A DNA stretch of 64,000 nt, taken from assembly GCA_021737145.1 (NCBI GenBank), contig JAIPEN010000013.1, positions 1 to 64,000 of the forward strand, given 5' to 3'. The stretch is from Desulfarculaceae bacterium. Lineage in GTDB: Bacteria; Desulfobacterota; Desulfarculia; Desulfarculales; Desulfarculaceae. This document shows positions 29,826-48,461 of this stretch, one piece after another (position 1 is the first letter of the stretch; the number at the start of each line of letters is the position of its first letter). A program made the translations under genes and the position numbers. Under the pieces are notes generated by a model. That model ran no database searches, had not been told where the DNA came from, and was given only the letters and a program-made list of their open reading frames with translations.

Positions 29826-29897
29826 GCGCGACATTCATAGCCAAAACGCCTGCCCCCGCGCCATGGACGGGGCGGCCCCGCAATGAGAGGAAATGAA

Positions 29898-31897: not shown

Positions 31898-32740
31898 GTG
31901 AAGTTTCGCTTTTGGGGAACCCGGGGCTCCTTGCCCGCGCCGGGCCCGGACACCCTGGTCTACGGCGGCAACAGCACCTGTTGCTCCATCGAACATGAGG
32001 GCCGCCACCTGGTCATCGACGCGGGCAGCGGCATCCGCCTTTTGGGGGCCGAGCTCATGGGGCCCGGTCCCATGGGCGGAAGCGAGGACGCCTCCCTGGA
32101 GGTGACCCTGCTCATGACCCACCTGCACTTCGACCACATCATGGGCTTTCCCTTTTTCGCCCCGGCCTACACCCCTGGCGCGGTTATCCGCCTGGGCGGC
32201 TGGCCCAAGTGCCTCAAAGGCATCAAGGGCATGTTCAAGAACGGCCGCTACGACGGCGGCTTCCCGGTGTCCTTTGCCGAGCTGCCCAGCAAAATACTGC
32301 GCGACGAGGCCCTGACCCCGCCCCGCTTCGCCTGGCAGGGGATGGAGGTGCGCACCACCCCCCTGAACCACCCCCAGGGCGCGGTGGGCTACCGTTTCGA
32401 GGCCCCGGGCGGGGCCCTGGTGTTCATCACCGACAATGAGCTGGCCGTGGGCGCGCCGCCGCCCAAGGCCCTGGTGGAGTTCTGTTCCGGCGCGGCGGTG
32501 CTCATCCACGACGCCCAGTATCTTCCGTCCGAGATGGACATCTGCGCGGGCCGGGGGCACTCCGAGTTCAGGGCCTGCCTGGCCCTGGCCCAAGCCGCCG
32601 GGGCGGGCCGCCTCATCCTGACCCATCACGACCCCGGGCGCACCGACGCCCAGATCGAGGCCATGATCGACCAGGCCCGCGCCGAGGCCGGCTCCCTGCC
32701 CGTGGAGGGAGCCCGCGAGGGCCAGACCCTGGAACTCTGA
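31898..32740 (+). CDS. MBL-fold metallo-hydrolase (PhnP/RNase Z-like)
   Basis: A 280-residue protein from GTG 31898 (AGGAAGG upstream). It starts MKFRFWGTRGSLPAPGPDT and has THLHFDH as the metal motif, then VFITDNE and HDAQYLPSE, and THHDPGRTD late in the protein. These fit the MBL subgroup near PhnP and cyclic-phosphate or nucleotide phosphodiesterases. The adenylate cyclase gene starts 23 bases downstream on the same strand, so a role in cyclic-nucleotide turnover is possible but unproven. Confidence 0.78.
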   Translation: MKFRFWGTRGSLPAPGPDTLVYGGNSTCCSIEHEGRHLVIDAGSGIRLLGAELMGPGPMGGSEDASLEVTLLMTHLHFDHIMGFPFFAPAYTPGAVIRLGGWPKCLKGIKGMFKNGRYDGGFPVSFAELPSKILRDEALTPPRFAWQGMEVRTTPLNHPQGAVGYRFEAPGGALVFITDNELAVGAPPPKALVEFCSGAAVLIHDAQYLPSEMDICAGRGHSEFRACLALAQAAGAGRLILTHHDPGRTDAQIEAMIDQARAEAGSLPVEGAREGQTLEL

Positions 32741-32763: not shown

Positions 32764-34311
32764 ATGGCCCGGCTCAAATATTTCCTGCTGGCCAACTCCA
32801 TGGTCCTTGGCAACTTCCTGGCCAACCTCCTGGGCGTGATGGTCATGGGCCTGCTGGACCGCTTCGGCTACATGGAGTCGGTGCCCCGCACCCCGGCGGT
32901 GATCTGGCTCATCGTCCTTTACGACCTCTTCGCCCTCCTCACCGGCCTGATCATCTTTTACATCTACGAGCGGCCCATCCGCCGCCACCTGCGCAATCTG
33001 GCCCGCAAGGAGCAGACCCCCCGGCCCCTGCTGTCCCAGGCCCGCCGCCGCCTGCTCAACGAGCCCTGGCTGGGCATGGGCCTCAGCCTGGGGCTGTGGA
33101 TCCTGGCGGCCATCGTATTCCCCATATTTCTGCACCAGGTGCCCACCGCCGAACACCTGGCCCCGGTGCTGGCGGTGCGCGCCCTGTTCGTGGGTCTGTT
33201 GACCATGACCTCGGCCTTTTTCGTGCTGGAGCACATCCTGCAACACCGCCTGGCCCCGGTGTTCTTCCCCCAAGGCGGCCTCACCCGGGTGCGGGGGGCC
33301 CGGCGCATCAGCATCGGTCTGCGTTTGGGCATGCTGGTCATGGCCTCGTCCATGATTCCCTTCTTGGCCATCTTCTTCACCATCCAGAGCTCCAAGCGCA
33401 TGCTGGACCGGGGGGTGATCGCCAGCGCGGAGATGCTGGGCGAGTTGCAGACTTCGGTGCTTTTTTTGAGCATCCTGTTCATGGTCAACGCGGCGAGCCT
33501 GGCCTTTTTAACCCGGTCCAACCTGGTTCACCCCCTGCGCGAGATCATCCGCGCCCTGCGTCAGGTGCGCGAGGGCGACTTCAACGCCCGAGTGGAGGTG
33601 ATGGCCAACGACGAGGTCGGCTACACCGGCGAGGCCATCAACCAGATGACCGCCGGCCTGGCCGAACGCGAGCGCATCAAGGACACCTTCGGCAAGTACG
33701 TGTCCCAGCAGGTGCGCGACGAGATCCTGGCCGGGCGCATCCCCCTGGACGGCGAGATCAAGCAGGTCACCATGCTTTTCAGCGATCTCAGAAACTTCAC
33801 CCCCCTGGTGGAAAACACCGATCCCAAGCAGGTGGTGCAGATCATCAACGGCTACTTCACCCGCATGACCGAGGCGGTGGAGGGCCAGAGCGGCCTGGTG
33901 CTGCAATACGTGGGCGACGAGATCGAGGCGGTGTTCGGGGCGCCCCTGGCCCTGGCCGGCCATCCCCGCCTGGCCCTGGAGGCGGCCTGGAACATGCGCG
34001 CCGCCCTGGCCGAGTACAACGCCCTGTTGGCCGCCCAGGGGGGCCCGGTCCTGCGCCACGGCATCGGCATCCACACCGGCCCGGCCATGGCCGCCAACAT
34101 CGGCGGCGGAGGGCGGCTGTCCTATGCCCTGGTGGGCGACACGGTGAACCTGGCCGCCCGCCTGCAAGACCTGACCAAGGCGCTGGGCCGCGACATCCTG
34201 CTCAGCGGGACCACCGCCGCCGCCCTGGGCTCCGGGGCCCGGGTGGAGCATTTGGAAAACACCCTGGTCAAGGGGCGCAGTCAGCCGGTGGAGGTCTACG
34301 CCGCCCTATAA
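32764..34311 (+). CDS. Membrane adenylate cyclase (class III) with HAMP domain
   Basis: A 515-residue protein with about six membrane helices (near 5-30, 45-68, 103-124, 135-158, 185-207 and 230-250), a HAMP linker (250-303) and a class III cyclase domain (330-515). Metal ligands are Asp341 (LFSDLRNFT) and Asp385 (YVGDEIEAVFG). Lys333 and the LVGDTVNLAARLQ strand (Asn462, Arg466) fit ATP rather than GTP as substrate. The N-terminal sensor has no known ligand. It follows the metallo-hydrolase by 23 bases. A terminator lies 83 bases downstream. Confidence 0.9.
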   Translation: MARLKYFLLANSMVLGNFLANLLGVMVMGLLDRFGYMESVPRTPAVIWLIVLYDLFALLTGLIIFYIYERPIRRHLRNLARKEQTPRPLLSQARRRLLNEPWLGMGLSLGLWILAAIVFPIFLHQVPTAEHLAPVLAVRALFVGLLTMTSAFFVLEHILQHRLAPVFFPQGGLTRVRGARRISIGLRLGMLVMASSMIPFLAIFFTIQSSKRMLDRGVIASAEMLGELQTSVLFLSILFMVNAASLAFLTRSNLVHPLREIIRALRQVREGDFNARVEVMANDEVGYTGEAINQMTAGLAERERIKDTFGKYVSQQVRDEILAGRIPLDGEIKQVTMLFSDLRNFTPLVENTDPKQVVQIINGYFTRMTEAVEGQSGLVLQYVGDEIEAVFGAPLALAGHPRLALEAAWNMRAALAEYNALLAAQGGPVLRHGIGIHTGPAMAANIGGGGRLSYALVGDTVNLAARLQDLTKALGRDILLSGTTAAALGSGARVEHLENTLVKGRSQPVEVYAAL

Positions 34312-34394
34312 GTCCCCGGGGTTTTATGCTAAAGTGGGTTTTGAGGAGGGGTGAGCGGGGGCTTGCCCAAGGCCGCGCCATGGCGGCCGATTCG

Positions 34395-34419
34395 GCGCTC
34401 GGGTAGGGAGCGCTTTTTT
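34395..34419 (+). terminator. Terminator between cyclase and gshB
   Basis: GCGCTC (34395-34400), loop GGGTAGG, GAGCGC (34408-34413), then six T (34414-34419). It ends seven bases before the gshB ATG, so the hairpin covers the place where an RBS should be; it may both end the cyclase transcript and affect gshB. Confidence 0.65.
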
Positions 34420-34425
34420 ATACAT

Positions 34426-35433
34426 ATGCGGGTGCCAAGGATGATCATCGCCTTCATGATGGACCCCCTGGAGTCCATCTCGCCGGAGAACGAAACCACC
34501 TCCTGGTTGATGTACGAGTGCAACCAGCGGGGCCACACGGTGTTTTTCCTGGAGCCCCACGACATCTACGTGCGCGGCTCCCAGCTGGTGGCCCGCATGC
34601 GCAACGTCACCGTGCCTCCGGACCTGTCCATGCAGGACTATTGGGGCCAGGCGCTGAGCTGCCTGCAAAAGGACGAGCTGATCTTCGAGGAGATCACCGA
34701 CATCGACGCCCTGTTTCTGCGCAAGGACCCGCCGCTCAACTACCAGACCATGGAATACCTCCACCACGTGGGCAAGGACGTGTTCATCATCAACTCCACC
34801 CACGGCCAGATGGTGGCCTCATCCAAGCTCTATCTGCTCAACTTCCCGGATATCATCCCCGAGACCCACGTGAGCCGCGATCCCAAGCGCCTGCGCAAGA
34901 TCATCGACGAGTTCGGCGGGGCCATGGTGGTCAAGCCGCTGAGCCGCTCCCGGGGCGAGGGGGTGATCAAGGTCTCCAGCGCGGACCGCGACAACCTGAA
35001 CTCCCTGATCCACTATTACGTCAACTCCTACAAGCCCTATCCCTACCGCGAGGCCATCATGGTGCAGGAGTATTTGAGCCAGGTGCGCGAACATGGTGAC
35101 GTGCGCATCATGCTCCTGAACGGCGAGATCCTGGGGGCCATGCGCCGCATCCCGGCCGAGGGTGACTTCCGCACCAACATCCACGCCGGGGCCAGCCCGG
35201 CCAAGCACCGGATCACCGAGAGCGACCGCCGCATTTGCGCCACCATCAAGCCGCGGCTCATCGCCGACGGGCTCTACTTCGTGGGCCTGGACATCATCGG
35301 CGACGAGCTGGTGGAGATAAACGTGGTGAGCCCGGGAGGCATTCCGCGCATCAACCACCTGGAAGGCATCAAGATCGAGGCCACGGTTGTCGATTTCGTG
35401 GAGAAGCAGGTGGCCGCCCTCAAGGGTGGCTAG
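34426..35433 (+). CDS. gshB: Glutathione synthetase
   Basis: ATP-grasp ligase joining gamma-glutamylcysteine and glycine. ATG 34426 gives 335 residues (an in-frame ATG at 34441 is the alternative). Visible are AFMMDPLESISPENETTSW, PPLNYQTMEYL, INSTHGQMVASSKLY, VVKPLSRSRGEGV (ATP site), GDVRIMLLNGEILGAMRRIP, and VEINVVSPGGIPRIN near the end. All fit bacterial GshB. No gshA is in the window. N-formylglutamate amidohydrolase follows after repeat A copy 3. Confidence 0.92.
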   Translation: MRVPRMIIAFMMDPLESISPENETTSWLMYECNQRGHTVFFLEPHDIYVRGSQLVARMRNVTVPPDLSMQDYWGQALSCLQKDELIFEEITDIDALFLRKDPPLNYQTMEYLHHVGKDVFIINSTHGQMVASSKLYLLNFPDIIPETHVSRDPKRLRKIIDEFGGAMVVKPLSRSRGEGVIKVSSADRDNLNSLIHYYVNSYKPYPYREAIMVQEYLSQVREHGDVRIMLLNGEILGAMRRIPAEGDFRTNIHAGASPAKHRITESDRRICATIKPRLIADGLYFVGLDIIGDELVEINVVSPGGIPRINHLEGIKIEATVVDFVEKQVAALKGG

Positions 35434-35700: not shown

Positions 35701-36468
35701 GTGACCCTTCCCCTGATCATCACCCTGCCCCACTGCTCGGCCGAGCTGCCCGCCGAAAGCCGCACCGCTCTGGCCCTGGAGCCGGGGGAGGTGGTCCAGT
35801 CAACGGATCTGGGCATCATGGAAGTCTTCGGGCCCCTGCCGGTGCTGGCCCTGCTGCCCGCCTCTTATTCCCGCCTGGCCGTGGACCTCAACCGCGCGCC
35901 CGACGACTTCGGGAGCCATGGGGTGGTGGCCGCGGCGGACTACGCCGGGCGGCCGGTGTTCCGGCCGGGGCAAACCCCGGACCGGGCGACCAAGCAGGCG
36001 GCGGTGGAGCGCTGGTGGCGGCCCTGGCACCAGCGGCTGGCCCAGGCCCTGGCCCGGCCCGGGGTGGCCGCGCTCATCGACGGGCACAGCCTGGACGGCA
36101 TCGGACCGGCCGGGGCTCCGGATCCGGGCCGGGCGCGGGCCGAGGTGGTGCTGGGCAACCGGGGCGGAGCGGACGGCGAGGCCCTGCCGGGCCAGGAGCT
36201 TACCTGCCCGCCGGAGCTTATGCGCCGCCTGGGCGCGGCCCTGGAGTCCCGGGGCCTGTCCGTGGCCTACAACGCCCCCTATGCCGGGGGACAGGTCATC
36301 GCCCGCCACGGGCCGAAGCTCCTGGCCCAGGGCCAGGCCGCATTGCAGATGGAATTGAACAAGGATCTATACGCCGACCCGGCCTACAGCCGGGTCGACC
36401 ATGAAAGGGCGGCGGAACTCAGCCGTCGCTTGGAGTCGGCTCTGGCTTCGGTGTTTCCTCCCCGGTGA
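35701..36468 (+). CDS. N-formylglutamate amidohydrolase family protein
   Basis: A 255-residue hydrolase. Family motifs are ITLPHCSAELP at the start, STDLGIMEVF, YSRLAVDLNRAPDD and LIDGHSLDGIG (putative metal-binding Asp/His), and VAYNAPYAGGQVI. The family hydrolyses N-formyl-L-glutamate (histidine breakdown) or related N-acyl substrates; no hut genes are nearby. The GTG start has only a weak RBS. Its last 50 bases overlap the 3' end of the convergent cyclic-nucleotide-binding gene. Confidence 0.85.
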   Translation: MTLPLIITLPHCSAELPAESRTALALEPGEVVQSTDLGIMEVFGPLPVLALLPASYSRLAVDLNRAPDDFGSHGVVAAADYAGRPVFRPGQTPDRATKQAAVERWWRPWHQRLAQALARPGVAALIDGHSLDGIGPAGAPDPGRARAEVVLGNRGGADGEALPGQELTCPPELMRRLGAALESRGLSVAYNAPYAGGQVIARHGPKLLAQGQAALQMELNKDLYADPAYSRVDHERAAELSRRLESALASVFPPR

Positions 36469-36946
36469 GGAACGAGGGCGGCAGGTCGCACACCGGCATG
36501 GTGTGAATCTTGTCGTGCAGGTTGCGCAGGCGGCGGGAAAGCTCCTTGCACATCTGCAGGGCCACCTGGGGATACTCGCGCACCGTCTCCTCGAACTCCC
36601 GCTTGTACAGCACCAGCACCTGCACCTCGCCCTCGGCGGTCACCGTGGCCGAGCGGGGGGCATCGTCGAACAGGGCCATCTCGCCCACGTAGTCCCCTTC
36701 GCCCAGCTCGGCCAGCTCCAGGGCGCAACCGTCATCGCCGGCCTGGCTCACCTTCACCTTGCCCTTGACGATGAGGTACATGGTCTCGCCCACGTCGTTC
36801 TCGGCGATGATCTCCTCGCCGGGGGCGGCCACGTAGTCCTCGCACACCGTGGCCACCGCGGCCAGCTCGGCCACGGCCAGGCCCTCGAATATCTCCATGC
36901 GCCTGAGCAGCAAAATTTTTTCCGACAGACTGGTCTCGGCGGCCAT
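36419..36946 (-). CDS. Stand-alone cyclic-nucleotide-binding domain protein
   Basis: A 175-residue protein with one CNBD (about 15-135): FEGLAVAELAAVA, EENDVGETMYLIVKG-type strands, and a phosphate-binding cassette YVGEMALFDDAPRSATV that keeps the Gly-Glu and Arg contacts for cAMP or cGMP. There is no DNA-binding domain, so it is not a CRP-type regulator. The tail (about 155-175) is Pro/Glu-rich. Its ATG lies one base after the stop of the translocase-HEAT gene, so both proteins should be made together. It probably senses cyclic nucleotide for the transporter. Confidence 0.88.
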   Translation of the reverse strand: MAAETSLSEKILLLRRMEIFEGLAVAELAAVATVCEDYVAAPGEEIIAENDVGETMYLIVKGKVKVSQAGDDGCALELAELGEGDYVGEMALFDDAPRSATVTAEGEVQVLVLYKREFEETVREYPQVALQMCKELSRRLRNLHDKIHTMPVCDLPPSFLTGEETPKPEPTPSDG

Positions 36947-36947
36947 G

Positions 36948-39749
36948 TCAGCTCCTCCCCTCCGGCTTCCGGGCCCTGGCCATCAAGCGGCCGGCCTCCT
37001 GGCTCACATAGGGGTTCTTGTGCCCGGCCAGGCGCTCCAGGGTGGTCATGAACGGCTCGGGGTCCGTGTCCTGACTCCCCAGCACCAGCAGGCTCAGGTA
37101 AAGGGTGACCCAATTCTTCTTGGCCAGCAAGTCCGCGAACAGCTCCTGCGTCTGCGCGAACCTAAGCGGCATCTTGAACAGCTTGCGCCCCAGGGCCAGG
37201 GTCTCGTTCACCGGGCCGTCCTCCAGCAGGGGGATCATGGCCTGGGAGATGTCGTGGCCCACCATGGACTCCAGGGCCTCCACCGCGTTGGAGCGCATCT
37301 TGGCGTTCACCGAGGAGAGCCCCCGGATGATCAGGCGCATCTGGTCCGACTCCTCCTGGGTGGACAGCACCCGGAGGATGGTGTTGATGCGGCTCTTGAT
37401 GCGCTCGGTCAGGTGCTGGGTGAGCAGGTCGCGCTCCGGGCCCTCGGGCAGCTTGCCCAGGGCCTTGACCTCGGCCAGGTTGAGATAGGCGAACTCCAGG
37501 TTGCTGCGGGCAAAGGCGATGATCTCCCTGTCGCTGATCTTGAGCTCGGCCATTAGGCGGTAGAGCCCGTCGCGGATGCGCCGGTTGGGCAGGGTCATGG
37601 ACTCGATGAGCACCGCGCTGTCCAGGTCCTCCAGGGCCTCCAGCCGGCTCAGGGCCATCTCGTGGCGCTCGGGGTCCTCGCTGCCCAGCAGGTGGATAAA
37701 GGCCTTGATGTCGGCCTCGCTGTTGAGGTGGAAGTCGTTGAGCACCTCCAGGGGAACCGCGGCCGGGTCGTCGGACAAACGGGCCTGCACCAGCTCGTGC
37801 AGGTGGGGGTCGTCCAGGCGGTTGAGGGCCACCAAAATCTCGCCCCGGAGCTTGTTGTCCTCCTCCGAGGCCAGCATGTCGCGCAGGCGGGGGCGGAACT
37901 CCTGGTTGCCCGAGCCGCCCGCGGCCACCACCCCGGCCCGGCGCTGCTCCCGGTCCTGGCTGGCAAGCCAGTCGCTGATCACCGTCTCGTATTTCACCGG
38001 ATCGTGGCGGTAGAGCCCCACCACGGCCTGGGCCCGCACCTGGGGATCGCTCTGCTGGTCGTAGAGCCGCTGCAAAAATCCGCCCGACACCTCCCAGGGC
38101 AGGCGGGTCGCCGCCACGGCCAGGGCCGCGTTCAGCTTGGGCCGGGCCGGGTCGGCCAGCTCGGAATAGGCGGCCACCGCCGCGGGCCCGGCGCTGGAGG
38201 GTATCAGGGGCAGCAGGTCCATGGCGGTCTGCTCGTCCTTGGTGCGGATGAGCTGGAGCAGGTGCTGGTCCAGGTCGGGCACCTGCTGGGCCCGCATCAT
38301 CTCGGCGTACCAAAGGCAGGCCCGCCCCTGGGAGTTGAGGCAGGCGTCCACCAGCTGCTCCTGGGCCCGCTTGTCCTTGAAGATCACCCCCACGTCCTGC
38401 TCTTCCAGGGACTTCAGGTCGATGACGTTGCTGCCGATGAGCCCCAGCAGGATGTCGGAGTAGGAGCGTTTTAGCCAGATGGTGCTGACCACCCAGATCA
38501 GGCCCACCGCCATGCCGACCAGCGACAGCCAGCGGGGGTGGAACAGGTGCTCGGACAGGAAGATGACCCCCGAGCCGAGGAGAATGCCGATCCGGACCAC
38601 GGTGCCGCGCAGGAAAGGCCTGAGCAGGGCCCGGAACTTGTCCGGGAACAGGCCCACCAGGATGTTGCGGGCCGGGTTGTTTATGGTCACCAATAACACC
38701 CGGGTGGAGATGCGGGCGTACATGGCCGAGTAGATGCTGAAGTTGAACAGGAAGGCTCCGAAGGCGATGACGTAGTTGATGGGGTGGAACATCAGGGCCA
38801 CGGGCAGGCCCCAGCGGTTGTAGAGCTTGCCCACGAACAAGAGGATGATCAGGCTGATGATGTTGAGCACGCCCCGGAAGTAACCGAAAAAGGTCACCAT
38901 GCCGCCCTCGGTGGCATAGGTCTCGTTCACCGCGTAGTTGAACTGGTAGTTCATGATGGGCAGCACGATGTTGGGCAGCAGGGTCAGCAGCACCAGGATC
39001 TTGAGCAGGGTCGATTCCTTGAGCATGGGAACGATCTGCTTGAACTCCTCGAGCAGACCGCTCTTCTTGCCGCCCTTCTTGGCGTCGCGCTCGGGCATGT
39101 TCAGCACCGGGTAGCGCCGCGACATCTCCCACACGCACAGGGCTCCGGCGCAGGCCACCACCCCGTAGGCCAGCATCAGGTTGTCGAAATTGATGGTCCG
39201 GGCCAGGCCGGGAGTGACAAAGGAGCCCACGATGGCCCCGATGACCCCGCCGGCGGTGATCAGGGGGAAGATGCGCTTGGACTGGCGGGTGTTGAACAGG
39301 TCGTTGGCCAGGTTCCAGAACACCAGGGCCAACAGGCCCTCGTACTGGGCCTTCAGGAGAAAGAGCACCGGGTAGATCAGATCGACGCCCATCTCCAGCA
39401 CCGGCCGCAGCGCGGCCACCGACAGCCCGCAGAACATCATCATGTAGGCCAGCATGCGGCCGCTGGGCAGCTTGCGCAGCAGGCCGGTGATGGCGGCCAT
39501 GATCACGAAGGTGGTCAGGGAGTTGGCCACATAGACGATGGGCAGATACTCCACCCCAAAGCGCTTGAGGAAAGCGGTCTCGGCGAAGTTGTTGAAGAAG
39601 ATGTTGGCCGTGCGGATGAGATAGAGCAGGGCGGCGGACCACAAGAACAGCCCAATCTCGTTGGGCTGCACCTTGAGCCAACGGCCCACCATGGCGGCTG
39701 CTTTGTTCATTACCCCACTCGCAACGGAAATGGCCTCGAAAACCGGCAT
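36948..39749 (-). CDS. Nucleotide-translocase-like (NTT/MFS) membrane protein fused to HEAT repeats
   Basis: A 933-residue protein. The N-terminal ~430 residues form about 12 membrane helices of the ATP/ADP carrier (Npt/NTT) type, related to the MFS: FLWSAALLYLIRTANIFFNNFAE-like start (split), RIFPLITAGGVIGAIVGSF and NNPARNILVGLFPDKFRA. The remaining ~480 residues are HEAT-like helical repeats (for example SELADPARPKLNAALAVAA, RDMLASEEDNKLRGEILVAL, SSVNAKMRSNAVEALES). Start may instead be the ATG at 39710. NTTs of parasites exchange ATP and ADP; the free-living HEAT-fused forms have no settled function. The CNBD protein follows one base later. Confidence 0.82.
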   Translation of the reverse strand: MPVFEAISVASGVMNKAAAMVGRWLKVQPNEIGLFLWSAALLYLIRTANIFFNNFAETAFLKRFGVEYLPIVYVANSLTTFVIMAAITGLLRKLPSGRMLAYMMMFCGLSVAALRPVLEMGVDLIYPVLFLLKAQYEGLLALVFWNLANDLFNTRQSKRIFPLITAGGVIGAIVGSFVTPGLARTINFDNLMLAYGVVACAGALCVWEMSRRYPVLNMPERDAKKGGKKSGLLEEFKQIVPMLKESTLLKILVLLTLLPNIVLPIMNYQFNYAVNETYATEGGMVTFFGYFRGVLNIISLIILLFVGKLYNRWGLPVALMFHPINYVIAFGAFLFNFSIYSAMYARISTRVLLVTINNPARNILVGLFPDKFRALLRPFLRGTVVRIGILLGSGVIFLSEHLFHPRWLSLVGMAVGLIWVVSTIWLKRSYSDILLGLIGSNVIDLKSLEEQDVGVIFKDKRAQEQLVDACLNSQGRACLWYAEMMRAQQVPDLDQHLLQLIRTKDEQTAMDLLPLIPSSAGPAAVAAYSELADPARPKLNAALAVAATRLPWEVSGGFLQRLYDQQSDPQVRAQAVVGLYRHDPVKYETVISDWLASQDREQRRAGVVAAGGSGNQEFRPRLRDMLASEEDNKLRGEILVALNRLDDPHLHELVQARLSDDPAAVPLEVLNDFHLNSEADIKAFIHLLGSEDPERHEMALSRLEALEDLDSAVLIESMTLPNRRIRDGLYRLMAELKISDREIIAFARSNLEFAYLNLAEVKALGKLPEGPERDLLTQHLTERIKSRINTILRVLSTQEESDQMRLIIRGLSSVNAKMRSNAVEALESMVGHDISQAMIPLLEDGPVNETLALGRKLFKMPLRFAQTQELFADLLAKKNWVTLYLSLLVLGSQDTDPEPFMTTLERLAGHKNPYVSQEAGRLMARARKPEGRS

Positions 39750-39798: not shown

Positions 39799-40833
39799 TC
39801 ACCCCCCCAGGCGGCACTCCTCGGGCGGCGGCGGGGACTGGCCCCCCTCGGCCGCGAAGTGGCACAGGCACACCTGCTCCCCTGCCACCTGGCGCCATTC
39901 GGGGTAGGTGGCCGAACAGAGCAGCCGCTCGGCCAGGGCGCAGCGCTGGAAAAAGGGGCAACCGGCCTGCTCGCCGGCCGGGCGCGGAGCGGGCAGATAG
40001 GTGCCGTAGGTGGGCACCCCCTCGCAGCGGCCGAACTTGGGCGTGGCGTCGATCAGGGCCTTGGTATAGGGGTGGCTGGGCGAGTTGATCACCGCCTCGG
40101 CCGGGCCCTGCTCCACCAGATGGCCGTGGTAGATCACCGCGATGCGGTCGCAGAGATAGCGGGCCGCGGCCATGGAGTGGGTGATGAAGATGATGGTGGC
40201 CCCCATCTGGTCGCGCACCCCCTGCAAAATCTCGAAGATCTGGGCCGAGTAGGAGGCGTCGAGCATGCTGGTGGGCTCGTCGGCCACCAGCAGGCTGGGC
40301 TCCAACACGATGGCCCGGGCGATGGCCACCCGCTGGCGCTGTCCCCCGCTCAGCTGATGGGGGAAGCGGTAGATGAAGTCCTCGGCCGGCGAGAGCCCGG
40401 CGGTGTCCAGCACCCCGAGCACCCGCTCCAGGCGATCGGCCGGATCGCCCACCTTGTTGGTGATCAGGGGCTCGGCCACCGCGTCGGCGATGGTCATCTG
40501 GGGGTTGAGCGACTGGTAGGGGTCCTGAAAGACCATCTGCACCTTGCGGCGGTAGTCCCTGAGGCCGCCCCCCTTGAGATGGGTGATGTCCACCCCGTCC
40601 AGGGTGATGCGCCCCTCGTCGGGCTCCTCCAGGCGCACCACCAGGCGCCCGGCCGTGGTCTTGCCGCTGCCGCTCTCGCCCACCAGGCCGAATATCTCCC
40701 CGGGCCGGAGGCTAAGGTTCACCCGGCTCAGGGCCACCACGGTGCCTCCGCCCCGGCGGTAGCGGTTGCCCCGGGTGCGGTAGAACTTGCTCACCCCTTC
40801 CAGCTTGAGGATGTCCTTGTGACTCTGGCTCAT
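39799..40833 (-). CDS. Peptide ABC transporter ATP-binding protein (OppF/DppF type)
   Basis: A 344-residue ATPase, last gene of a five-gene importer operon. Walker A is GESGSGKTTA, the signature is LSGGQRQRVAIARAI, and Walker B is LLVADEPTSMLD. The C-terminal OppF extension has a Cys-containing tail (GCPFFQRCALAERLLC) of the type that can bind an iron-sulfur cluster in this family. Separated from the OppD-type gene by 16 bases. Confidence 0.94.
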   Translation of the reverse strand: MSQSHKDILKLEGVSKFYRTRGNRYRRGGGTVVALSRVNLSLRPGEIFGLVGESGSGKTTAGRLVVRLEEPDEGRITLDGVDITHLKGGGLRDYRRKVQMVFQDPYQSLNPQMTIADAVAEPLITNKVGDPADRLERVLGVLDTAGLSPAEDFIYRFPHQLSGGQRQRVAIARAIVLEPSLLVADEPTSMLDASYSAQIFEILQGVRDQMGATIIFITHSMAAARYLCDRIAVIYHGHLVEQGPAEAVINSPSHPYTKALIDATPKFGRCEGVPTYGTYLPAPRPAGEQAGCPFFQRCALAERLLCSATYPEWRQVAGEQVCLCHFAAEGGQSPPPPEECRLGG

Positions 40834-40849: not shown

Positions 40850-41803
40850 TCAGCAGTGATCGCAGAGCACCCAGTGGCGCTCGTTGATCTCCTGCCACTT
40901 GGGCGGCTCCAGCTTGCAGGAGGCGGTGTCCTTGGGGCAGCGGTCGCAGAATCGGCAACCCGGAATGGCGCCGATGAGGTTGGGCGGCTCGCCGGGGATG
41001 GGGGTCAGCTTGCTCTTGGGCCCGGCCAGGGTGGGGAAGGAGCCCACCAGGGCCCGGGTGTAGGGGTGTTTGGAGTTGAAAAACACCTCCTGGGCCGGCC
41101 CGGCCTCCACCAGCTGCCCGGCGTACATCACCCCGATGTCGTGGCACACCTCGGCCACGATGGATATGTCGTGGCTGATGAAGATGATTCCGATGTCGAA
41201 CTGCTCCTGCAGGACCTTGGTCTCCTTGAGGATCTGGTCCTGCACGATCACGTCCAGGGCGGTGGTGGGCTCGTCGGCGATTATCAGCTTGGGGTTTAAA
41301 GCCAGGGCCATGGCGATGATGGCCCGCTGCTTCATGCCCCCGGAGTACTGATGGGGGAAGTCGTGCAGCCGCTCCAGGGGCAGGCCCACCAGGTTGAACA
41401 GCCCCTCCACCCGCTGCATGATGGCCTGCTCGTCCATGTCCGGCCGGTGGGTGCGGATGGCCTCGGTCATCTGGGCGCTCACCCGGATCACCGGGTTCAG
41501 GGCGTTCATTGCCGCCTGGAAGATCATGGCCACCTGGCTCCAACGCACCTTGCGGAGCTCTTCCTCGTCCAGGGCGCTGATCTCCACCCCGTCCAGGACG
41601 ATGCGCCCGCCGGTGATGGAGCCGTTGGGGGGCAGCAGGCCCATCAGGGCCATGCCGATGGTGGTCTTGCCGCAGCCGCTCTCGCCCACCAGGCCCAGGG
41701 AGCGTCCCTCCTCCAGGCTCAGGTTCACCCCGTCCACCGCCTTGAGCATGCCTCCGGCGGTGCGGTAGCCGATGGAAAGATTCTCTACCTTGAGAAGCGC
41801 CAT
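40850..41803 (-). CDS. Peptide ABC transporter ATP-binding protein (OppD/DppD type)
   Basis: A 317-residue ATPase with Walker A GESGCGKTTI, signature YSGGMKQRAIIAMAL, and Walker B LIIADEPTTALD. The C-terminal cysteines GCRFCDRCPKDTASC fit the OppD/DppD tail. Pairs with the OppF-type subunit as a heterodimer. One base separates it from the upstream permease gene. Confidence 0.94.
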   Translation of the reverse strand: MALLKVENLSIGYRTAGGMLKAVDGVNLSLEEGRSLGLVGESGCGKTTIGMALMGLLPPNGSITGGRIVLDGVEISALDEEELRKVRWSQVAMIFQAAMNALNPVIRVSAQMTEAIRTHRPDMDEQAIMQRVEGLFNLVGLPLERLHDFPHQYSGGMKQRAIIAMALALNPKLIIADEPTTALDVIVQDQILKETKVLQEQFDIGIIFISHDISIVAEVCHDIGVMYAGQLVEAGPAQEVFFNSKHPYTRALVGSFPTLAGPKSKLTPIPGEPPNLIGAIPGCRFCDRCPKDTASCKLEPPKWQEINERHWVLCDHC

Positions 41804-41804
41804 G

Positions 41805-42740
41805 TCAGCCCGCCTGGGTCTCGTCGCGCAGCCGGGGGTCCAGGACCTCGTCCATGGCCCGGCCCAGCATGTAGAACGACAGGGTGATGAGCGAAATGCA
41901 GATGCCCGGAGGCAGCAGCCAATAGGGCGCGGTGAACATATGCCCGGTCTTCCACACCCATTGCAGCATCATGCCCCAGCTCACGGTGCCCGGGTCGCCG
42001 AAGCCCAAAAAGGCCAGGCCCGCCTCGATGACGATGGCGCTGGTCACCCGGAAGGTCATGTACAAGAAGGCCAGGGGCAGCACGTTGGGCATGATGTGCC
42101 GGAAGATGATGCGCGTGTGGCTGGCCCCGGCCACCCGGGCCGCGTCGATGAAGGGACGCTGCTTCAGGCTCAGCGTCTGGGCCCGGATCACCCGGCTTAC
42201 CCCGGGCCATCGGAACAGGGCGATCATGAGCACGATCATCCAGATGGACAACTGGCCGAACAAAGCGGCCAGCATCAGCACCACCAGCAGGGTGGGCAGC
42301 ACCATGATCATGTCGGCCAGGCGCATCAAGAGGGTGTCGGTGGTCTTGCCCAGATAGCCCGCGGTCATGCCCACCGCGGTGCCCAGCACCACGGACATGA
42401 AGGCGGCCGACACGCCCACCATGAAGGCCACCCGGGCCCCGGCCAGAAGCTGGGACAGGATGTCGCGCCCCATGAAATCGGTGCCCAGCCAGTGGGTCAG
42501 GCTGGGGCCGGTGGATTTGACCACCAAGGGGTCCACCCCGGTCATGGGGTGGTACATGGGGTCGATCAGGGGCGGGATGTAGCTTAGCCCGGCCATGAGC
42601 CCGAACATCACCAGCAGGCTCAGGCCGATCTTGCCCAACAGGTTGCCCCGGAACACCCGCCAGTTCTCGGCCAGGCGCTGGCGCCACAGGGCGCGGCGGC
42701 CGGCCTTGAGCGATTGCAAGGTTGCTTGTTGCACGCTCAT
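41805..42740 (-). CDS. Peptide ABC transporter permease (OppC/DppC type)
   Basis: A 311-residue inner-membrane protein with an N-terminal helix, a periplasmic loop with GTDFMGRDILSQLLAGARVA, and the binding-protein-dependent transport domain with EAA loop AARVAGASHTRIIFRHIMPN. Five to six helices. Two bases separate it from the OppB-type gene. Confidence 0.93.
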   Translation of the reverse strand: MSVQQATLQSLKAGRRALWRQRLAENWRVFRGNLLGKIGLSLLVMFGLMAGLSYIPPLIDPMYHPMTGVDPLVVKSTGPSLTHWLGTDFMGRDILSQLLAGARVAFMVGVSAAFMSVVLGTAVGMTAGYLGKTTDTLLMRLADMIMVLPTLLVVLMLAALFGQLSIWMIVLMIALFRWPGVSRVIRAQTLSLKQRPFIDAARVAGASHTRIIFRHIMPNVLPLAFLYMTFRVTSAIVIEAGLAFLGFGDPGTVSWGMMLQWVWKTGHMFTAPYWLLPPGICISLITLSFYMLGRAMDEVLDPRLRDETQAG

Positions 42741-42742: not shown

Positions 42743-43714
42743 CTAGTACCTGATCCGGGGGTCGAGGAAGGCGTAGAGCACGTCCACCACCACGTTGGAG
42801 AACAAGACCACCGTGGCGATGAGCAGGAAAGAAGCCTGGGCCAGGGGGTAGTCGTTTTGGCTCACCGCGAACACCAGCTCCCGGCCAATGCCCGGCCAGG
42901 AGAACACCGTCTCGGTGAGCGCGCCTCCGTTGATGCTAAAGGCCAGGGAAAGCCCCACGCTGGTCACCACCGGCAGCCAGGCGTTGGGCGCGGCGTGCTT
43001 GTTGCGGATGGCCCGGTCGCTGAGTCCCTTGGCCCGGGCCAGCACGATGTAGTCCTCCTTGAGAGTCTCCAGCATGGACGAGCGCATCACCAGCAGATAG
43101 GAGCCGAAGTGGATCAGGAACAGGGTGGCCAGGGGCAGCACCATGTGATAGCCCACGTCCACCGCCTTGGCCCAGAACCCGGCGTCCGGGTCCAAAAACA
43201 CCTCTTCGGAGACCATGCCGGTGATGGGGAACCAGTCCAACTGGTAGGCGAAAACCCACACCAACAACAGGGCCAGCCAGGGCAGAAACAGGGTGTGGGT
43301 CACCAGGGCGGCGATGGTCATGCCTATATCGGCGCCCTTGCCCTTTTTCCAGGCGGCTATCTTGCCCCAGGATATGCCCACCATGGCCGAGAGCAGCACC
43401 GCGGTGGTGAACAGCAGGATGGTGTTGGGCAGCTTGTCCCAGATCACCCTGGCCACCGGTTCGCCGTAGTGGATGGAATAGCCGAACTCGCCCGAGGCGA
43501 AGTTCTTCAGGTAGATCAGGTACTGCTTCCAGATGGGCTCGTCCAGGCCCAGTTGCTCGATGAGGTGCTGGGCGTCCTCGGGGGTCATCTCCGGGTCCAC
43601 CATGCGCGAAACCGGATCTCCCGGGGCCAGGCGGAAGAGCACGAACAGCACGGTGAGGATGAAAAACAGGATCACCACCACCTGAGCCAGGCGTTTTGCT
43701 ATGTATTTCCTCAT
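42743..43714 (-). CDS. Peptide ABC transporter permease (OppB/DppB type)
   Basis: A 323-residue inner-membrane protein with the standard start (MRKYIAKRLAQVVVILFFI), LFRLAPGDPVSRM, and EAA loop ARAKGLSDRAIRNKHAAPNA. Six helices. It is 37 bases after the substrate-binding protein gene, so transport subunits B, C, D and F follow the binding protein in the usual order. Confidence 0.93.
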   Translation of the reverse strand: MRKYIAKRLAQVVVILFFILTVLFVLFRLAPGDPVSRMVDPEMTPEDAQHLIEQLGLDEPIWKQYLIYLKNFASGEFGYSIHYGEPVARVIWDKLPNTILLFTTAVLLSAMVGISWGKIAAWKKGKGADIGMTIAALVTHTLFLPWLALLLVWVFAYQLDWFPITGMVSEEVFLDPDAGFWAKAVDVGYHMVLPLATLFLIHFGSYLLVMRSSMLETLKEDYIVLARAKGLSDRAIRNKHAAPNAWLPVVTSVGLSLAFSINGGALTETVFSWPGIGRELVFAVSQNDYPLAQASFLLIATVVLFSNVVVDVLYAFLDPRIRY

Positions 43715-43751: not shown

Positions 43752-45479
43752 TTACTTGGCCTTTATCTGGCAAAGGGACCAGATGTTGCCAACTCCGCCC
43801 AGCATGGGCACCCAGCCGGTGAAGCGGTCGATGCGAACGCCCTCGATCACCTTGGGGTTGTACAGGGGCACATAGGGCACCGCCGCCATGAGCATGGCCT
43901 GCATCTGGAAGATCATCTCCTGGCGCAGCTTGGGGTCCATGGCGTTGTTGGATTCGTTGGACAGGGCGTCGTAGGCCGCGCTCTCGTAGCCGCTCATGTT
44001 GTAGCCGCGCGGCTTGTTGTAGCGGGAGTGGAAAAAGGCCCGCAGATAGCCCGGGTCCAGCGACAGCTTGCCGTAGCCCAGGATAAAGGCGTCGAAGTCG
44101 TGCTGACCCTTGACCTTCTGGATCAGGGCCCCGAAGGCCATGGGGCGGCTGACGGCCGGCATGCCCGCGGCCCGGAGCCACTCCTGGATCATCTGGCCGC
44201 TCATGGCCCGGTGGGGGTCATAGTCGGCCGGCGGGGTGAGGATGGTGAACTCCTTCATGGGCGAGCCGTCGGGCAGGCGGATGCCCTCGCCCCTGACCAC
44301 CTCGCCGTTGGCGTTCACCGGCGGGGTCTCCCAGGTGTAGCCCGCCTCCCGGAGGATGTTGTAGGCCAGCTTCATGCGCTCGTCCATGGACTTGCCATAG
44401 CCGTACTTGGGCACGTCGGGGTTGTAGTAGAAGCTGTTTCCCGGCGGAATCATGGAGTGCAGCACCTCGCCGTATCCCTGCAGGATGCGCTTGATGATGA
44501 ATTCCTTGCTCACCAGGGTGGCCACCGCGCGCCGCAGGGCCACGTCGTCGAAGGGCTCCTTGCGCAGGTTGAAGCCCAGGTAGTACAGGCCGCTCTTGTT
44601 GCTCACGAACAGCTTGATGTCCTTGTCGTCCTTGAGCTGCTCCAGATAGCCGGCCTGGATGCTGTTCCAGTAGAAGTCGATGGCGCCCTTGCGCAGGGCC
44701 AGGATGGCCGCGTCGGCGGTGCCGTAGACCTTGAAGATGATGCCCTTGATATGGGGCCCCAGTTTATGGCCGGAGATGGTCTGGCCGCGGCCGAAGAAGT
44801 GGGGGTTGGCCTTCATGAAAACGAACACGCCCTTTTGCCACTTGCTCACCACAAAGGGCCCGGTGCCGATGGGGTTGGTGAGCTTGTGCCTGAGGATGAC
44901 GGTCAGGGGCTTTTCGGCCCCCTGGGCGCTGGCCACGATCTTTTCCCACTGCTTTTTCTGCACGATGGGCGTGGTCAGGGTGCGCGAGAGGAAGATGGCC
45001 TTGGGCCGCTTGAGCTCGAAGCGCACCGTGTGCTTGTCCACGGCCACCACCCGCTCGATGAAGCTCCATTTGGAGCGGTGGCGGGGCATCCTGAATTTGT
45101 TGATGAGCTGGCCGGTGAAGATCACGTCGGCGGCGGTGAAGTCGCTGCCGTCGGACCACTTGGCCTTCTTGAGCTTGACGGTGTAGGTCATCTTGCCCGC
45201 GTCATAGACCGGCTTGCCCGCCGCCAGCCAGGGCACCAGCTCGTTGCTCTTGGGTTCGCGAATGAACAGCGGCTCGTTGATCAGGCTCAGCACCCGCTTG
45301 GACCAGGCGTCGGTGGCCAGCCACAGGTTCAGGCTCTTGGGCTCCTCCAACACCCCGATCTTGAGCATGCCGTTGGCGGCAGCCGCGGGGGTGGCGCAGA
45401 GGCCGCCCAATAAAACCGTCACCATGGCCGCCAGGGCCAAGCCACGGACCATCATGTTCCGTTTAAAACACTTCGCCAC
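43752..45479 (-). CDS. Peptide-type solute-binding protein (SBP_bac_5 family)
   Basis: A 575-residue periplasmic binding protein. GTG 45479 follows AGAGGAG at five bases. The signal peptide ends near TPAAAANG. Typical segments are LKKAKWSDGSDFTAADVIFT, PIGTGPFVVSKW and DDVALRRAVATLVSKEFI. It sets the specificity of the transporter; peptides, nickel or opines are possible. First gene of its operon, with an operator-like dyad between TATAAT and RBS, but it may also be read from the ATP-grasp gene 130 bases upstream. Confidence 0.93.
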   Translation of the reverse strand: MAKCFKRNMMVRGLALAAMVTVLLGGLCATPAAAANGMLKIGVLEEPKSLNLWLATDAWSKRVLSLINEPLFIREPKSNELVPWLAAGKPVYDAGKMTYTVKLKKAKWSDGSDFTAADVIFTGQLINKFRMPRHRSKWSFIERVVAVDKHTVRFELKRPKAIFLSRTLTTPIVQKKQWEKIVASAQGAEKPLTVILRHKLTNPIGTGPFVVSKWQKGVFVFMKANPHFFGRGQTISGHKLGPHIKGIIFKVYGTADAAILALRKGAIDFYWNSIQAGYLEQLKDDKDIKLFVSNKSGLYYLGFNLRKEPFDDVALRRAVATLVSKEFIIKRILQGYGEVLHSMIPPGNSFYYNPDVPKYGYGKSMDERMKLAYNILREAGYTWETPPVNANGEVVRGEGIRLPDGSPMKEFTILTPPADYDPHRAMSGQMIQEWLRAAGMPAVSRPMAFGALIQKVKGQHDFDAFILGYGKLSLDPGYLRAFFHSRYNKPRGYNMSGYESAAYDALSNESNNAMDPKLRQEMIFQMQAMLMAAVPYVPLYNPKVIEGVRIDRFTGWVPMLGGVGNIWSLCQIKAK

Positions 45480-45609: not shown

Positions 45610-46482
45610 TCAGGGGTTTCCCAGGGAAAAATCCACGATGAGCCCGGCCGCGTCCAGGCCGGATGCCTGCTCCAGGCCCTTGAAACCAGGGGTGAAGTTC
45701 ACTTCCATCACCATAAGCTCCCCAGAGGCGGCTCTCACCAGGTCCACCCCGGCCACCTCCAGGCCCACCGCCCCGGCGGCGGCCTCGGCCAGGCGGGCGG
45801 TCTCGCCCCGGGGCAAATGGTTGGCCGGCGCGCCGCCCAAATGCAGGTTGGCCCGGAACTCGCCCGGCGCGGGGCTTAGCTCCATGCCGGCCACGGCCCG
45901 GCCCCCCAGCACCAGCACGCGATAGTCCTTCCGGCCCTCTGGCGGCAGATAGCGCTGCAAAAGTACGCCGCGCCGTTGCCTTAGCCACAGCTCCCGGGCC
46001 AGGGCGGCCTCCTCCGGGCCCGCGATCAGGGCCACGCCCGAGCCCTGGCGGCCCTGGGGCAGCTTGGCCACCAGGGGATAGCCGCCCAGGCGCTCCACCG
46101 CCTGGTCCCAGCCCCGGGGCCGGTTGACCAGGCAGGTGTCCGGGGTGGGCAGCCCGGCCCCGGCCAGGGCCTGCAGGCAAAGATACTGGTGGCTGGCCAG
46201 GCCGATGGGCCCGGGCCGGTTGACCAGGCGCGCGCCCAAAAGCTCCAGATGGCTGAGCAGGGCCATGGTGTAGGGGCTGATGGTGGAGCCCACCCGGGGC
46301 AGCACCACCGGCGGGGGCGGGTCCAGGCCCAGGAGCCCGGCCTTTGCGCCGGTCAGGGAGCACCAGGCCCGGAAGGGGTGCATGAGCACCAGCTCCACCC
46401 CGCGTTCCCGCGCCGCCTGGGCCAGCCTGCGGTTGGGGTGATAGTCCACCCCGTGCACCGAGACCACCCCCAGGCGCCTCAC
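45610..46482 (-). CDS. RimK-like ATP-grasp ligase
   Basis: A 290-residue ATP-grasp enzyme. The GTG start overlaps the stop of the radical SAM-like/GNAT gene (GTGA). Domain features: VVLPRVGSTISPYT, then VAKLPQGRQGSGVALI (glycine-rich ATP loop), VLLQRYLPPEGRKDYRVLVLG, FRANLHLGG and LMVMEVNFTPGFKG (metal ligands Glu and Asn). RimK-type ligases add amino acids, often glutamate, to peptides or small molecules. The target is unknown; the partner gene and the peptide transporter downstream suggest a peptide-like substrate. Confidence 0.87.
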   Translation of the reverse strand: MRRLGVVSVHGVDYHPNRRLAQAARERGVELVLMHPFRAWCSLTGAKAGLLGLDPPPPVVLPRVGSTISPYTMALLSHLELLGARLVNRPGPIGLASHQYLCLQALAGAGLPTPDTCLVNRPRGWDQAVERLGGYPLVAKLPQGRQGSGVALIAGPEEAALARELWLRQRRGVLLQRYLPPEGRKDYRVLVLGGRAVAGMELSPAPGEFRANLHLGGAPANHLPRGETARLAEAAAGAVGLEVAGVDLVRAASGELMVMEVNFTPGFKGLEQASGLDAAGLIVDFSLGNP

Positions 46483-48398
46483 GACCAGGGCTCCTCGCCC
46501 AGATCGGGGTCCTGGTCCCGGGGCATCCAGATCTGCATGTCCTTTTGCAGGCGGCGGGAGAAGTAGGTTTTCACCAGGCGCTGGCCGTTGCGGGCCAGGA
46601 TGCGCTGGCCGGGAATATTGTCCGCCCCGGTGATGATGACCATCTTGCGGCCCTCGGAATGCTCGATGACCCCCTGAATGAGCCGGTTGCCCACGTTCAG
46701 GCCCCGGTATTCGGGCCGGACCGAGATGTAGCCGCGCTCGGTGTAGCCGGTGAGGTCCAGGCCGCTCTGCTCCTTGATGCGCTCGATGTACTCGTCGCGG
46801 GGCCGCTTGAGGGTGTCGGTGCCCACGATCACCCCCTCCTCATGGGCATAGCCCACCAAATAGGCGTGGGCCAGGTTGTGGCGCAGCCACTTGGGCCGCA
46901 CCTTGCCCGCGGCCAGCACCAGCATGGCGATCTCTTCCAGGCGCTCGGGGCCGATCTCTCCGGGGCGGGCGAAGACGTATTCGAGGTTTTGGCCCAGGAG
47001 GTGGACCCCTCCCCCGTCGCGCACCCGCCAGCGCATGAGCCTCTGGCTGCCGTGGCGGGCCACATAGAGCAGCAGGTGAGCCGGATCGTCCATGAAGCGC
47101 CACAAGGGGCGGCCCGGCAGGGGGGCCACCTGGCGGAAGGCCTGGGCCTGGGGCTCGCCGATTGCCTGGCGGGGCCGGGGGGACCAGGGCCACAGCCAGG
47201 GGCGGCTCCAGGAGTGCACCACCTGGGGGTTGGAGCCGGTGAAGTCCAGCAGGCCCGCGGCCATGGGGTCCGAGGCCTCGGTGGGCAGCACCAGATGATT
47301 CCACAGCCCGGCCCGGTTGGACAGGGCCAGCGCCTTCTCGGCCTGGCCCAGGCGCTCCTCGGGGCTGGCGGGGGGCAGGGTCCCGCTCTGCCACTGCACC
47401 AGGCGCACCCCGCCGGCATGCAGGGCGCTAAGCACCTCGGGCGTGGGCGGGTCGTCCAGGGAAGCGGCCAGGCCCAGGGGGACCTGGTTGCCCTCCAGGG
47501 CAGGGGCCAGATCGGCCAGATAGGCGGCGGGCATCACCTGGCGCAGGGACAAGAAGGCCGCAGCCCCCTTGGACGCCTGCATGGCCATGCCCTGGGCCAG
47601 GCGGCCGGCGGGCATCAGTTGGGGCAAGGCGATGCCCGGGTCGCGCCAGTCGTGGTGCTCCAGCTCCATGCCCAGCACCGGGCGCAGGGTCATCACCGGC
47701 GCGGGCAGCAGATAATCGCCCCGGGGCGGCTCCAGATCGCGCAGCATGCAGCCCTCGCCCGGCTCGGCCCCGCTCAGGGAGGCGGCCAGGGAACGCAGGG
47801 GCACGGGGTCCAGCAGGGGCAGGGCGTGGTCCCAGCACTCGCTCCGGCCCTGGGGCGCGCCGGCCAGCTCCAGGCAGTCGCCCACCAGGGCCACCACCCA
47901 CTCGGGGCGTTGGGCCTTGAGCCAGGCGCCCATGACCAGGGCCCCCAGCCACTGGCCCGAGCTCTCCAGGGTGATGAGCGCCAGGCCGGGACCCTCGGCG
48001 GGCAGGCGGGCCTCCAGGCCGGCGGCCGCGAACTCGGCCAGGGGGGTGTCTTGGGTCCGGGCCCAGGCCAGGGAGCTCTCCAGGTCCAGGCTGGCCGGAT
48101 GCTCCAGGCCCCGCCAGGTGTAGCGGCCCGGGGATATCTCGGCTGAGAAAACCTCCAGGCGCTCGCGCAGCAGGCGGCGGGCCTGCACATAGGCGTCGGG
48201 GTCGTAAAAGCCCTCCCCGCGCAGCACCTGGGCCGCCTCCTCGCCCGGTCCGGGCAAAAGGCGCTCCCGCCAGAAGTCCAGGTTGGCGTCCCACACCTCC
48301 AAGGGCTCCAGGCCGGCCAGCATGGCCCGCACCCTGAGGGGTGCGCAGGGCGCGGCGGCCGGTGAAGCCAGGGGGGGATTGACCACGAATATGCGCAA
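46479..48398 (-). CDS. Degenerate B12-binding/radical SAM-like protein fused to a GNAT acetyltransferase
   Basis: TTG 48398 is preferred, with GAGGGA five bases upstream and RIFVVNPPLAS right at the start; ATG 48461 is possible but has no RBS. 639 residues. The N-terminal third has the layout of the cobalamin-binding part of B12-radical SAM enzymes (VVNPPL, VWDANLDFW, LALITLESSGQWLGALV). The middle resembles a radical SAM barrel, but no CxxxCxxC is present: the matching place reads LGMELEHHDW. The last ~170 residues are a GNAT domain (YISVRPEYRGLNVGNRLIQG). Co-translated with the ATP-grasp gene. Confidence 0.7.
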   Translation of the reverse strand: MRIFVVNPPLASPAAAPCAPLRVRAMLAGLEPLEVWDANLDFWRERLLPGPGEEAAQVLRGEGFYDPDAYVQARRLLRERLEVFSAEISPGRYTWRGLEHPASLDLESSLAWARTQDTPLAEFAAAGLEARLPAEGPGLALITLESSGQWLGALVMGAWLKAQRPEWVVALVGDCLELAGAPQGRSECWDHALPLLDPVPLRSLAASLSGAEPGEGCMLRDLEPPRGDYLLPAPVMTLRPVLGMELEHHDWRDPGIALPQLMPAGRLAQGMAMQASKGAAAFLSLRQVMPAAYLADLAPALEGNQVPLGLAASLDDPPTPEVLSALHAGGVRLVQWQSGTLPPASPEERLGQAEKALALSNRAGLWNHLVLPTEASDPMAAGLLDFTGSNPQVVHSWSRPWLWPWSPRPRQAIGEPQAQAFRQVAPLPGRPLWRFMDDPAHLLLYVARHGSQRLMRWRVRDGGGVHLLGQNLEYVFARPGEIGPERLEEIAMLVLAAGKVRPKWLRHNLAHAYLVGYAHEEGVIVGTDTLKRPRDEYIERIKEQSGLDLTGYTERGYISVRPEYRGLNVGNRLIQGVIEHSEGRKMVIITGADNIPGQRILARNGQRLVKTYFSRRLQKDMQIWMPRDQDPDLGEEPWS

Positions 48399-48461
48399 GC
48401 TGTCCCTCGGAATGGACTGGAGTAACGGCCAATTGGGTCGGAACCGCGGATCAGGGACCAT

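Follow-up and report, generated by a model that had tools for sequence, protein, structure and literature searches.

The window analysed here is a stretch of 64,000 nucleotides (contig JAIPEN010000013.1) from a Desulfarculaceae bacterium, whose genome assembly comprises 4.03 Mb in 29 contigs and whose nearest named relatives are Desulfarculaceae. It encodes an NTT-HEAT carrier and, directly downstream on the same strand, a free protein with a cyclic nucleotide-binding domain (CNBD). The carrier gene ends in a TGA stop, which is followed by a single base and then by the ATG of the CNBD gene. In the 933-aa carrier, Pfam matched TLC at 38.3 bits (cut-off 21) over residues 139-355 and HEAT_2 at residues 559-642. 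The 175-aa protein matched cNMP_binding at 80.3 bits, its phosphate-binding cassette contains the Glu and Arg of CRP/PKA-type cassettes, and the Pfam scan found no DNA-binding domain of CRP transcription factors in it. The open reading frames (ORFs) and family matches thus confirm the layout given in a first-pass annotation of this DNA, namely an NTT-HEAT carrier followed one base later by a free CNBD with an intact cassette and no DNA-binding domain.

The CNBD is a separate ORF in all eight genomes of the window's genus (the window counted) and is in frame with the carrier in all seven further relatives from the family or order, two of which end at a contig edge. Because the pair is kept as two ORFs throughout the genus and as one ORF in the further relatives, its association is more than chance. 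A wider set of 80 loci drawn from a genome collection contained 56 full-length fused genes, 13 split pairs, one shorter fused gene (L084, 998 aa), one locus of unclear frame (L090), and nine loci cut by contig ends; only the 56 full-length fused genes enter the alignment used below. The earlier view that carrier and CNBD form one unit is supported by fusion in most relatives. In a FastTree tree, the split or fused state switches at least four to five times, and the split state occurs in the window's genus and at three other tree positions.

This core finding is a member of a published family, seen here in its split state in a Desulfarculaceae member. The NTT-HEAT and NTT-HEAT-cNBD architectures, their split and fused forms, and the idea of a link to cyclic AMP (cAMP) and cyclases were set out by Major, Embley and Williams in 2017 (PMC5381601). 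The window pair has the features of that family, an NTT domain with C-terminal HEAT repeats and a CNBD directly downstream that is fused in relatives. The three modules and their order are the same, a split cNBD gene likewise lies a few nucleotides downstream, and several fusions and fissions are also described for their family. These proteins are widespread and reach Chlamydia (as NTT-HEAT) and oomycetes, and according to that paper none had been functionally characterised as of 2017. In the portion of its main text covered here, the internal start, the gene cluster of ABC importer, ATP-grasp and GNAT genes, the count of linked cyclases, and the cyclase residue type described below go unmentioned. 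The internal start and the gene cluster were likewise not found in the literature searched. What the present analysis adds to that portion is the conserved internal start, together with the cluster and the statistics on cyclases.

Fused genes carry a start signal at the junction with the CNBD. The signal was defined as an in-frame ATG or GTG with GGAG, GAGG, or AGGA 3-14 nt upstream, located no more than 25 codons before the CNBD core. It is present in 51 of the 56 fused genes, compared with 8% of stretches drawn at random from these genes, and 54 of 91 start codons at the junction have the signal, compared with 235 of 3247 elsewhere. Junction codons were also redrawn from each gene's own usage with the amino acids held fixed, and this synonymous null gave a mean of 29.2 and a maximum of 40 in 1000 draws. 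Stricter 6-nt cores numbered 41, against a null mean of 11.9 and a maximum of 21 (1000 draws). When a single gene was kept per 60%-identity group, the signal remained in 18 of 19 representatives (null mean 11.3, maximum 17, 2000 draws), 13 of them with strict cores (null mean 4.4, maximum 10). The strict signal is concentrated in the linker, where one 10-column bin holds 31 genes and a second holds 10; no other bin along the ORF exceeds three. Split genes use the same signal as their true start in 10 of 13 cases; in the window it is the Shine-Dalgarno-like motif that lies within the carrier gene's 3' end. Since the junction start and its Shine-Dalgarno-like core exceed the synonymous-codon expectation, the fused genes probably also make a free CNBD, and the signal would reflect selection for the CNBD also as a free protein.

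All 56 fused relatives conserve G, E, R, and A of the cassette, and the R is followed by S (51), T (3), or A (2). A second NTT-HEAT-CNBD paralogue was seen in other genera of the family (L036, L037, L038, L039, and L040), about 31% identical in the carrier part. Its CNBD probably does not bind cyclic nucleotides in the usual mode, because its phosphate cassette is degenerate (GAVGLF...TRL). No convincing internal start site was found in the paralogue, and none of the window's partner genes occurs in the three long paralogue loci (L036, L037, and L039).

A membrane cyclase of class III is encoded on the opposite strand, 2.1 kb away from the CNBD gene and separated from it by a GshB-like and an N-formylglutamate amidohydrolase-like (FGase) gene. 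It has both metal-binding Asp residues and the transition-state Asn and Arg (D, D, N, R). The first-pass annotation had called it an adenylate cyclase; a cyclase at that distance is confirmed, but the label 'adenylate' is not borne out by its purine-specifying pair, Q-A, which is neither the Lys with Asp or Thr of adenylate cyclases nor the Glu-Gly (E-G) of the Cya2 type. Class III cyclases (E <1e-30) occur in the flanks of 28 of the 80 loci, or 32 with weak hits included, where flanks are up to 10 kb per side and total 896 kb. About 1.6 would be expected for all 80 loci from the genome density (269 cyclases in 147.6 Mb of 35 genomes, which were chosen for usable flanks and not for cyclase content). 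In the 35 tested loci, 22 have a cyclase hit, or 20 without L088 and L097, which are probably not cyclases, compared with 1.08 expected; L045 and L113 are weak hits. The co-occurrence of cyclase, CNBD, and NTT-HEAT genes that had been proposed as a check is therefore borne out far beyond chance. A first impression from the window's own relatives, that the cyclase neighbourhood is not conserved, was overturned by whole-contig positions and the wider locus set. A cyclase count of 29/35 taken from tree labels is biased upward, since short flanks were labelled too, and was not used.

The linked cyclases lie upstream on the plus (12) or minus (8) strand and downstream on the plus (5) or minus (5) strand, and they are of two types, E-G (18 sequences, about 46-57% identical to Cya2) and Q-A, which includes the window's. 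At the first purine site, K is present in 0 of 32 linked cyclases but in 21 of 39 unlinked cyclases of these genomes (Fisher test, 1.3e-7), and the E-G pair occurs in 18 of the 32 versus 5 of the 39; neither comparison takes kinship into account. The linked set includes L045 and L113, both with D at the first site, and excludes four hits that could not be aligned to Cya2; the unlinked set excludes L139, which is on the contig of L112. An E-G pair is stated for Cya2, a Synechocystis guanylyl cyclase (2w01), and E replaces K in guanylyl cyclases (PMC4215837); the E488K exchange turns Cya2 into an adenylate cyclase (PMC5995499). The window cyclase is 34% identical to Cya2, with the Q-A pair instead. 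Because the linked cyclases lack the adenylate-cyclase lysine and are mostly of the Cya2-like E-G type, cyclic GMP (cGMP) is the more likely product of the E-G enzymes that most relatives have. This guanylyl-cyclase-like pair was seen in many class III cyclases of Desulfobacterota (L117:7531-8991 and relatives), and cGMP signalling in the phylum seems to merit attention.

The carrier-CNBD pair is accompanied by a recurrent set of genes (Table 1). Upstream of it in the window, the same strand encodes a five-gene Opp/Dpp-type ATP-binding cassette (ABC) importer, a RimK-family ligase, and a GNAT protein. Given spacings of -4 to +130 bp, these genes and the pair probably form a nine-gene operon in which the pair comes last; a sigma-70-type promoter for this putative operon was searched for and none was found. 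The FGase-like, GshB-like, and cyclase genes lie on the opposite strand, convergent to the CNBD gene.

Table 1. Coordinates of the carrier-CNBD pair and its partner genes in the window.
Feature	Position	Strand	Basis
NTT-HEAT carrier, 933 aa (NTT about residues 20-440, HEAT about 450-930)	36948..39749	-	ORF, Pfam, homologue model, structure matches
Free CNBD protein, 175 aa	36419..36946	-	ORF and Pfam
CNBD phosphate-binding cassette GEMALFDDAPRSATV	36641..36685	-	Translation; conservation in 56 fused relatives
Shine-Dalgarno-like GGAGGAG within the 3' end of the carrier gene	36952..36958	-	5 nt ahead of the CNBD ATG; fused genes keep an equivalent site
Membrane class III nucleotide cyclase, HAMP domain, pair Q-A	32764..34311	+	Pfam and alignment
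GshB-like ATP-grasp ligase	34351..35433	+	Homologues begin at about residue 31; true start may be about 34441
N-formylglutamate amidohydrolase-like protein (FGase)	35701..36468	+	Convergent with the CNBD gene, 50-bp overlap
Opp/Dpp-type ABC ATPase, labelled dppF	39799..40833	-	Family search, synteny
Opp/Dpp-type ABC ATPase, labelled dppD	40850..41803	-	Family search, synteny
ABC permease, labelled dppC	41805..42740	-	Family search, synteny
ABC permease, labelled dppB	42743..43714	-	Family search, synteny
Solute-binding protein SBP_bac_5, labelled dppA	43752..45479	-	Family search, synteny
RimK-family ATP-grasp ligase	45610..46482	-	TIGR00768, 159 bits (cut-off 143.4), synteny
660-aa protein, C-terminal GNAT domain	46479..48461	-	4-bp overlap with the RimK-like gene

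Unbiased ORF clustering and labelled maps of the 80 loci gave a recurrent set consisting of the GshB-like ligase, the ABC importer, the RimK-like ligase, the GNAT protein, a protein with a PP-loop motif, FGase, class III cyclases, and an FGE-like protein that, whenever present, is encoded immediately upstream of the carrier. Among the 17 loci whose flanks reach 9 kb or more on each side, GshB-like genes were found in 13, the binding protein in 13, GNAT in 11, RimK in 10, a cyclase in 10, FGE in 8, PP-loop in 7, and FGase in 6, and every one of the 17 has at least one gene among the GshB-like, binding protein, RimK, GNAT, PP-loop, and cyclase genes. Gene order and strand vary, which favours a kept linkage over a frozen order. 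In 13 loci, the offset of the GshB start relative to the carrier stop is -22 to +133 bp. In a sample of 148 genomes of the phylum, GshB (E <=1e-30) was found in 9 of 10 carrier genomes versus 7 of 138 others (Fisher test, 1.5e-9, kinship ignored, the 10 carrier genomes coming from about five families); G015 and G173, which hold the paralogue only, are not among the 10. The window's genome (94.7% complete) has a single strong copy of the GshB-like gene, and no GCS2 or Glu_cys_ligase match that would indicate a GshA partner was found in it.

A fused homologue from Desulfocarbo indianensis (L046), whose NTT-HEAT part is 53% identical to that of the window (tblastn), was folded with AlphaFold2 from 56 sequences and stands in for the window protein. 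The model (mean predicted local distance difference test, pLDDT, 80.8) places 12 long helices at residues 17-427, a helical solenoid at 438-915, and a CNBD fold at 932-1074, so the 12-helix NTT fold is found on this homologue. AtNTT1 was the best carrier match listed for its carrier part (Z 36.4, 3.1 A, 413 residues aligned), and NTT1 of Chlamydia pneumoniae (CpNTT1) followed at Z 34.5, with LacY lower at Z 29.6. Together, AtNTT1 (9j3l, 9j3m) and CpNTT1 (9j3n) are the best fold matches, with Z 34.5-36.4 and the FW..AN[DE] stretch aligned; the present carrier differs in its additional HEAT and CNBD modules, an identity of about 13-15%, and the apparent lack of E245- and E385-like residues discussed below. 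The NTT domain is strongly conserved in fused relatives, and many charged and polar residues in the membrane part are invariant.

We put at roughly 0.5 the probability that this system is an NTT-fold carrier with a cyclic nucleotide sensor subunit and a linked cyclase, serving gated transport in a ligase and importer pathway. Its architecture, cassette, linkage, and internal start signal were read from sequence; ligand binding, gating, substrate, and the second translation product are proposed. The cytoplasmic HEAT solenoid of an NTT-fold secondary carrier would carry or bind a cyclic nucleotide sensor made as a separate subunit. The window's genus encodes this sensor in an ORF of its own, one base downstream; relatives fuse it to the carrier, and a free form would also arise from the conserved internal start. 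The nearby class III cyclase would supply the ligand, and ligand binding would switch transport of a substrate from the ligase/importer pathway. This substrate would more likely be a small peptide-like or amino-acid-derived compound than ATP or ADP, because the conserved pathway includes an oligopeptide-type ABC importer with GshB-like and RimK-like ligases. The cluster gives a first lead to the substrate and the linked cyclases one to the ligand, and a definite second protein is predicted from the internal start. A narrower version is offered tentatively, in which NTT-HEAT-CNBD genes are two-start genes for a fused carrier and a free CNBD, and together with a mostly guanylyl-type cyclase form a cGMP-gated secondary transporter of an undescribed Desulfobacterota ligase and peptide-uptake pathway, with the window holding the same device as two ORFs. 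A cGMP-gated carrier would, if true, be a rare role for cGMP in bacteria.

Several observations weigh against the proposed mechanism. The pTM of the model is 0.60, so its domain placement is unsure. The site matching AtNTT1 E245 is K in 54 and R in 2 of the 56 fused relatives in a gap-free alignment, the register there carrying a one-residue gap, and the site matching E385 is N in 56/56; the PDB-chain numbering of both glutamates is inferred from a common offset, and K155 and K527 of AtNTT1 fall beyond the aligned stretch. In AtNTT1, E245K nearly abolished exchange (PMC3306366). Since the two functional glutamates seem not to be kept, ATP/ADP exchange is doubtful, and the carrier may transport nothing. 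No cyclase is nearby in 13 of the 35 tested loci, the window's cyclase sits outside the operon, the E-G pair also occurs in 5 of the 39 unlinked cyclases, and the neighbourhood linkage counts take no account of relatedness. The internal start signal is missing in 5 of 56 fused genes (L061, L093, L110, L112, and L119), so a free CNBD would not be needed everywhere, and no Shine-Dalgarno-like start was found by the search pattern in 3 of 13 split loci.

The glutamate sites bear on a cAMP-gated translocator of ATP/ADP or another nucleotide, as suggested by the first-pass annotation and, in outline, by Major et al. 2017. The NTT fold is the best structural match, the TLC family exceeds its cut-off, and cAMP has been linked to ATP uptake in that published proposal (PMC5381601), but TIGR00769 of NCBIfam reaches just 40.6 bits against a cut-off of 387.2. 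A nucleotide as substrate is not supported by the K/R and N found at the two sites, and the partner genes suggest ligases and a peptide-type importer. With regard to gating, the conserved cassette keeps a cyclic nucleotide plausible as ligand, and the missing lysine in the linked cyclases argues against cAMP specifically. Cyclic AMP-gated nucleotide transport is thus weakened as a hypothesis with respect to both ligand and substrate, and we regard it as improbable. The non-conserved exchange residues would also suit a transceptor or scaffold. Its NTT part would no longer transport, and its HEAT-CNBD arm would serve the ligases or the ABC importer as a platform for signalling; the close, operon-like spacing to the importer (in the window) and to GshB (in 13 loci) fits this too. 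Strong conservation of the NTT domain, with its invariant charged and polar membrane residues, would be unusual for a dead carrier, and this explanation is given little credence.

Two further alternatives concern the start signal and the cyclase. The signal could be a relic of a split ancestor, whose genes were fused by loss of the stop codon and now make no free CNBD. Split genes share it as their real start and the tree holds both states, but protein identity among the 19 representatives is below 60%, a level at which silent sites should be saturated, and the core nevertheless exceeds the synonymous null in 18 of 19, with the degenerate paralogue lacking a convincing site; a relic is accordingly rather unlikely, though with some chance of being right. 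Linkage to the cyclase could also be incidental, the enzyme serving the ligase/importer cluster or reflecting shared ancestry while the CNBD senses a different ligand, or no ligand. In the window, the cyclase is on the other strand and two genes away from the CNBD, several loci are closely related, and the genome G001 has no cyclase at the position usual in the genus, though one lies 9.7 kb away on the opposite side. An incidental link is made unlikely by the occurrence of two cyclase types on both sides and both strands, the 1.1 expected among 35 tested loci, and the intact cassette.

Parts of the proposed device have counterparts elsewhere. SLC9C1, a Na+/H+ exchanger gated by voltage and cAMP, is likewise a secondary carrier with a cytoplasmic CNBD, but it has an unrelated carrier fold, a voltage sensor, no HEAT repeats, and no separate CNBD (PMC10620091); Foldseek lists it among the matches with low TM-scores. 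Cas11, made from an internal start in cas8, is a similar case of one ORF giving a large fused protein and its C-terminal part. The proteins are unrelated, and the Cas11 product was detected by mass spectrometry, compared with a start signal alone in the present case (PMC11899642).

Further genes were observed around the carrier. A protein with an FGE-sulfatase domain and an apparent signal peptide is encoded directly upstream of the carrier on the same strand in 36 of 80 loci (e.g. L108:155-1015); the surroundings of the window's pair showed no such gene. A 378-aa family with an SGGIDS motif, encoded beside the RimK-like gene (L092:3983-5119 and 30 further loci), has no Pfam or NCBIfam match. 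A radical-SAM protein is close to the carrier in six loci, mostly of Desulfotignum (L118:6177-7466). The top Protein Data Bank matches to the N-terminal part of the 660-aa GNAT protein fit GNAT folds, and the searches led to no family assignment for it. An NAGGN-like osmolyte pathway (GNAT, ATP-grasp, and an amidating enzyme) was rejected, as no family match supports it.

In the window, a glucosyl-3-phosphoglycerate synthase-like gene (28464-29825, +) matches NF040724 at 217 bits, below the cut-off, and on the opposite strand an 886-aa ORF (27174-29834) has no family match and is probably a shadow ORF. A relationship of the AsnB-like gene at 30255-31832 to the PP-loop family of other loci was discarded at a profile comparison probability of 4.3%. 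This gene (+, with a weak Asn_synthase match) and one for an RNase Z-like metallo-beta-lactamase (31898-32740, +) lie upstream of the cyclase, and both are conserved in the genus.

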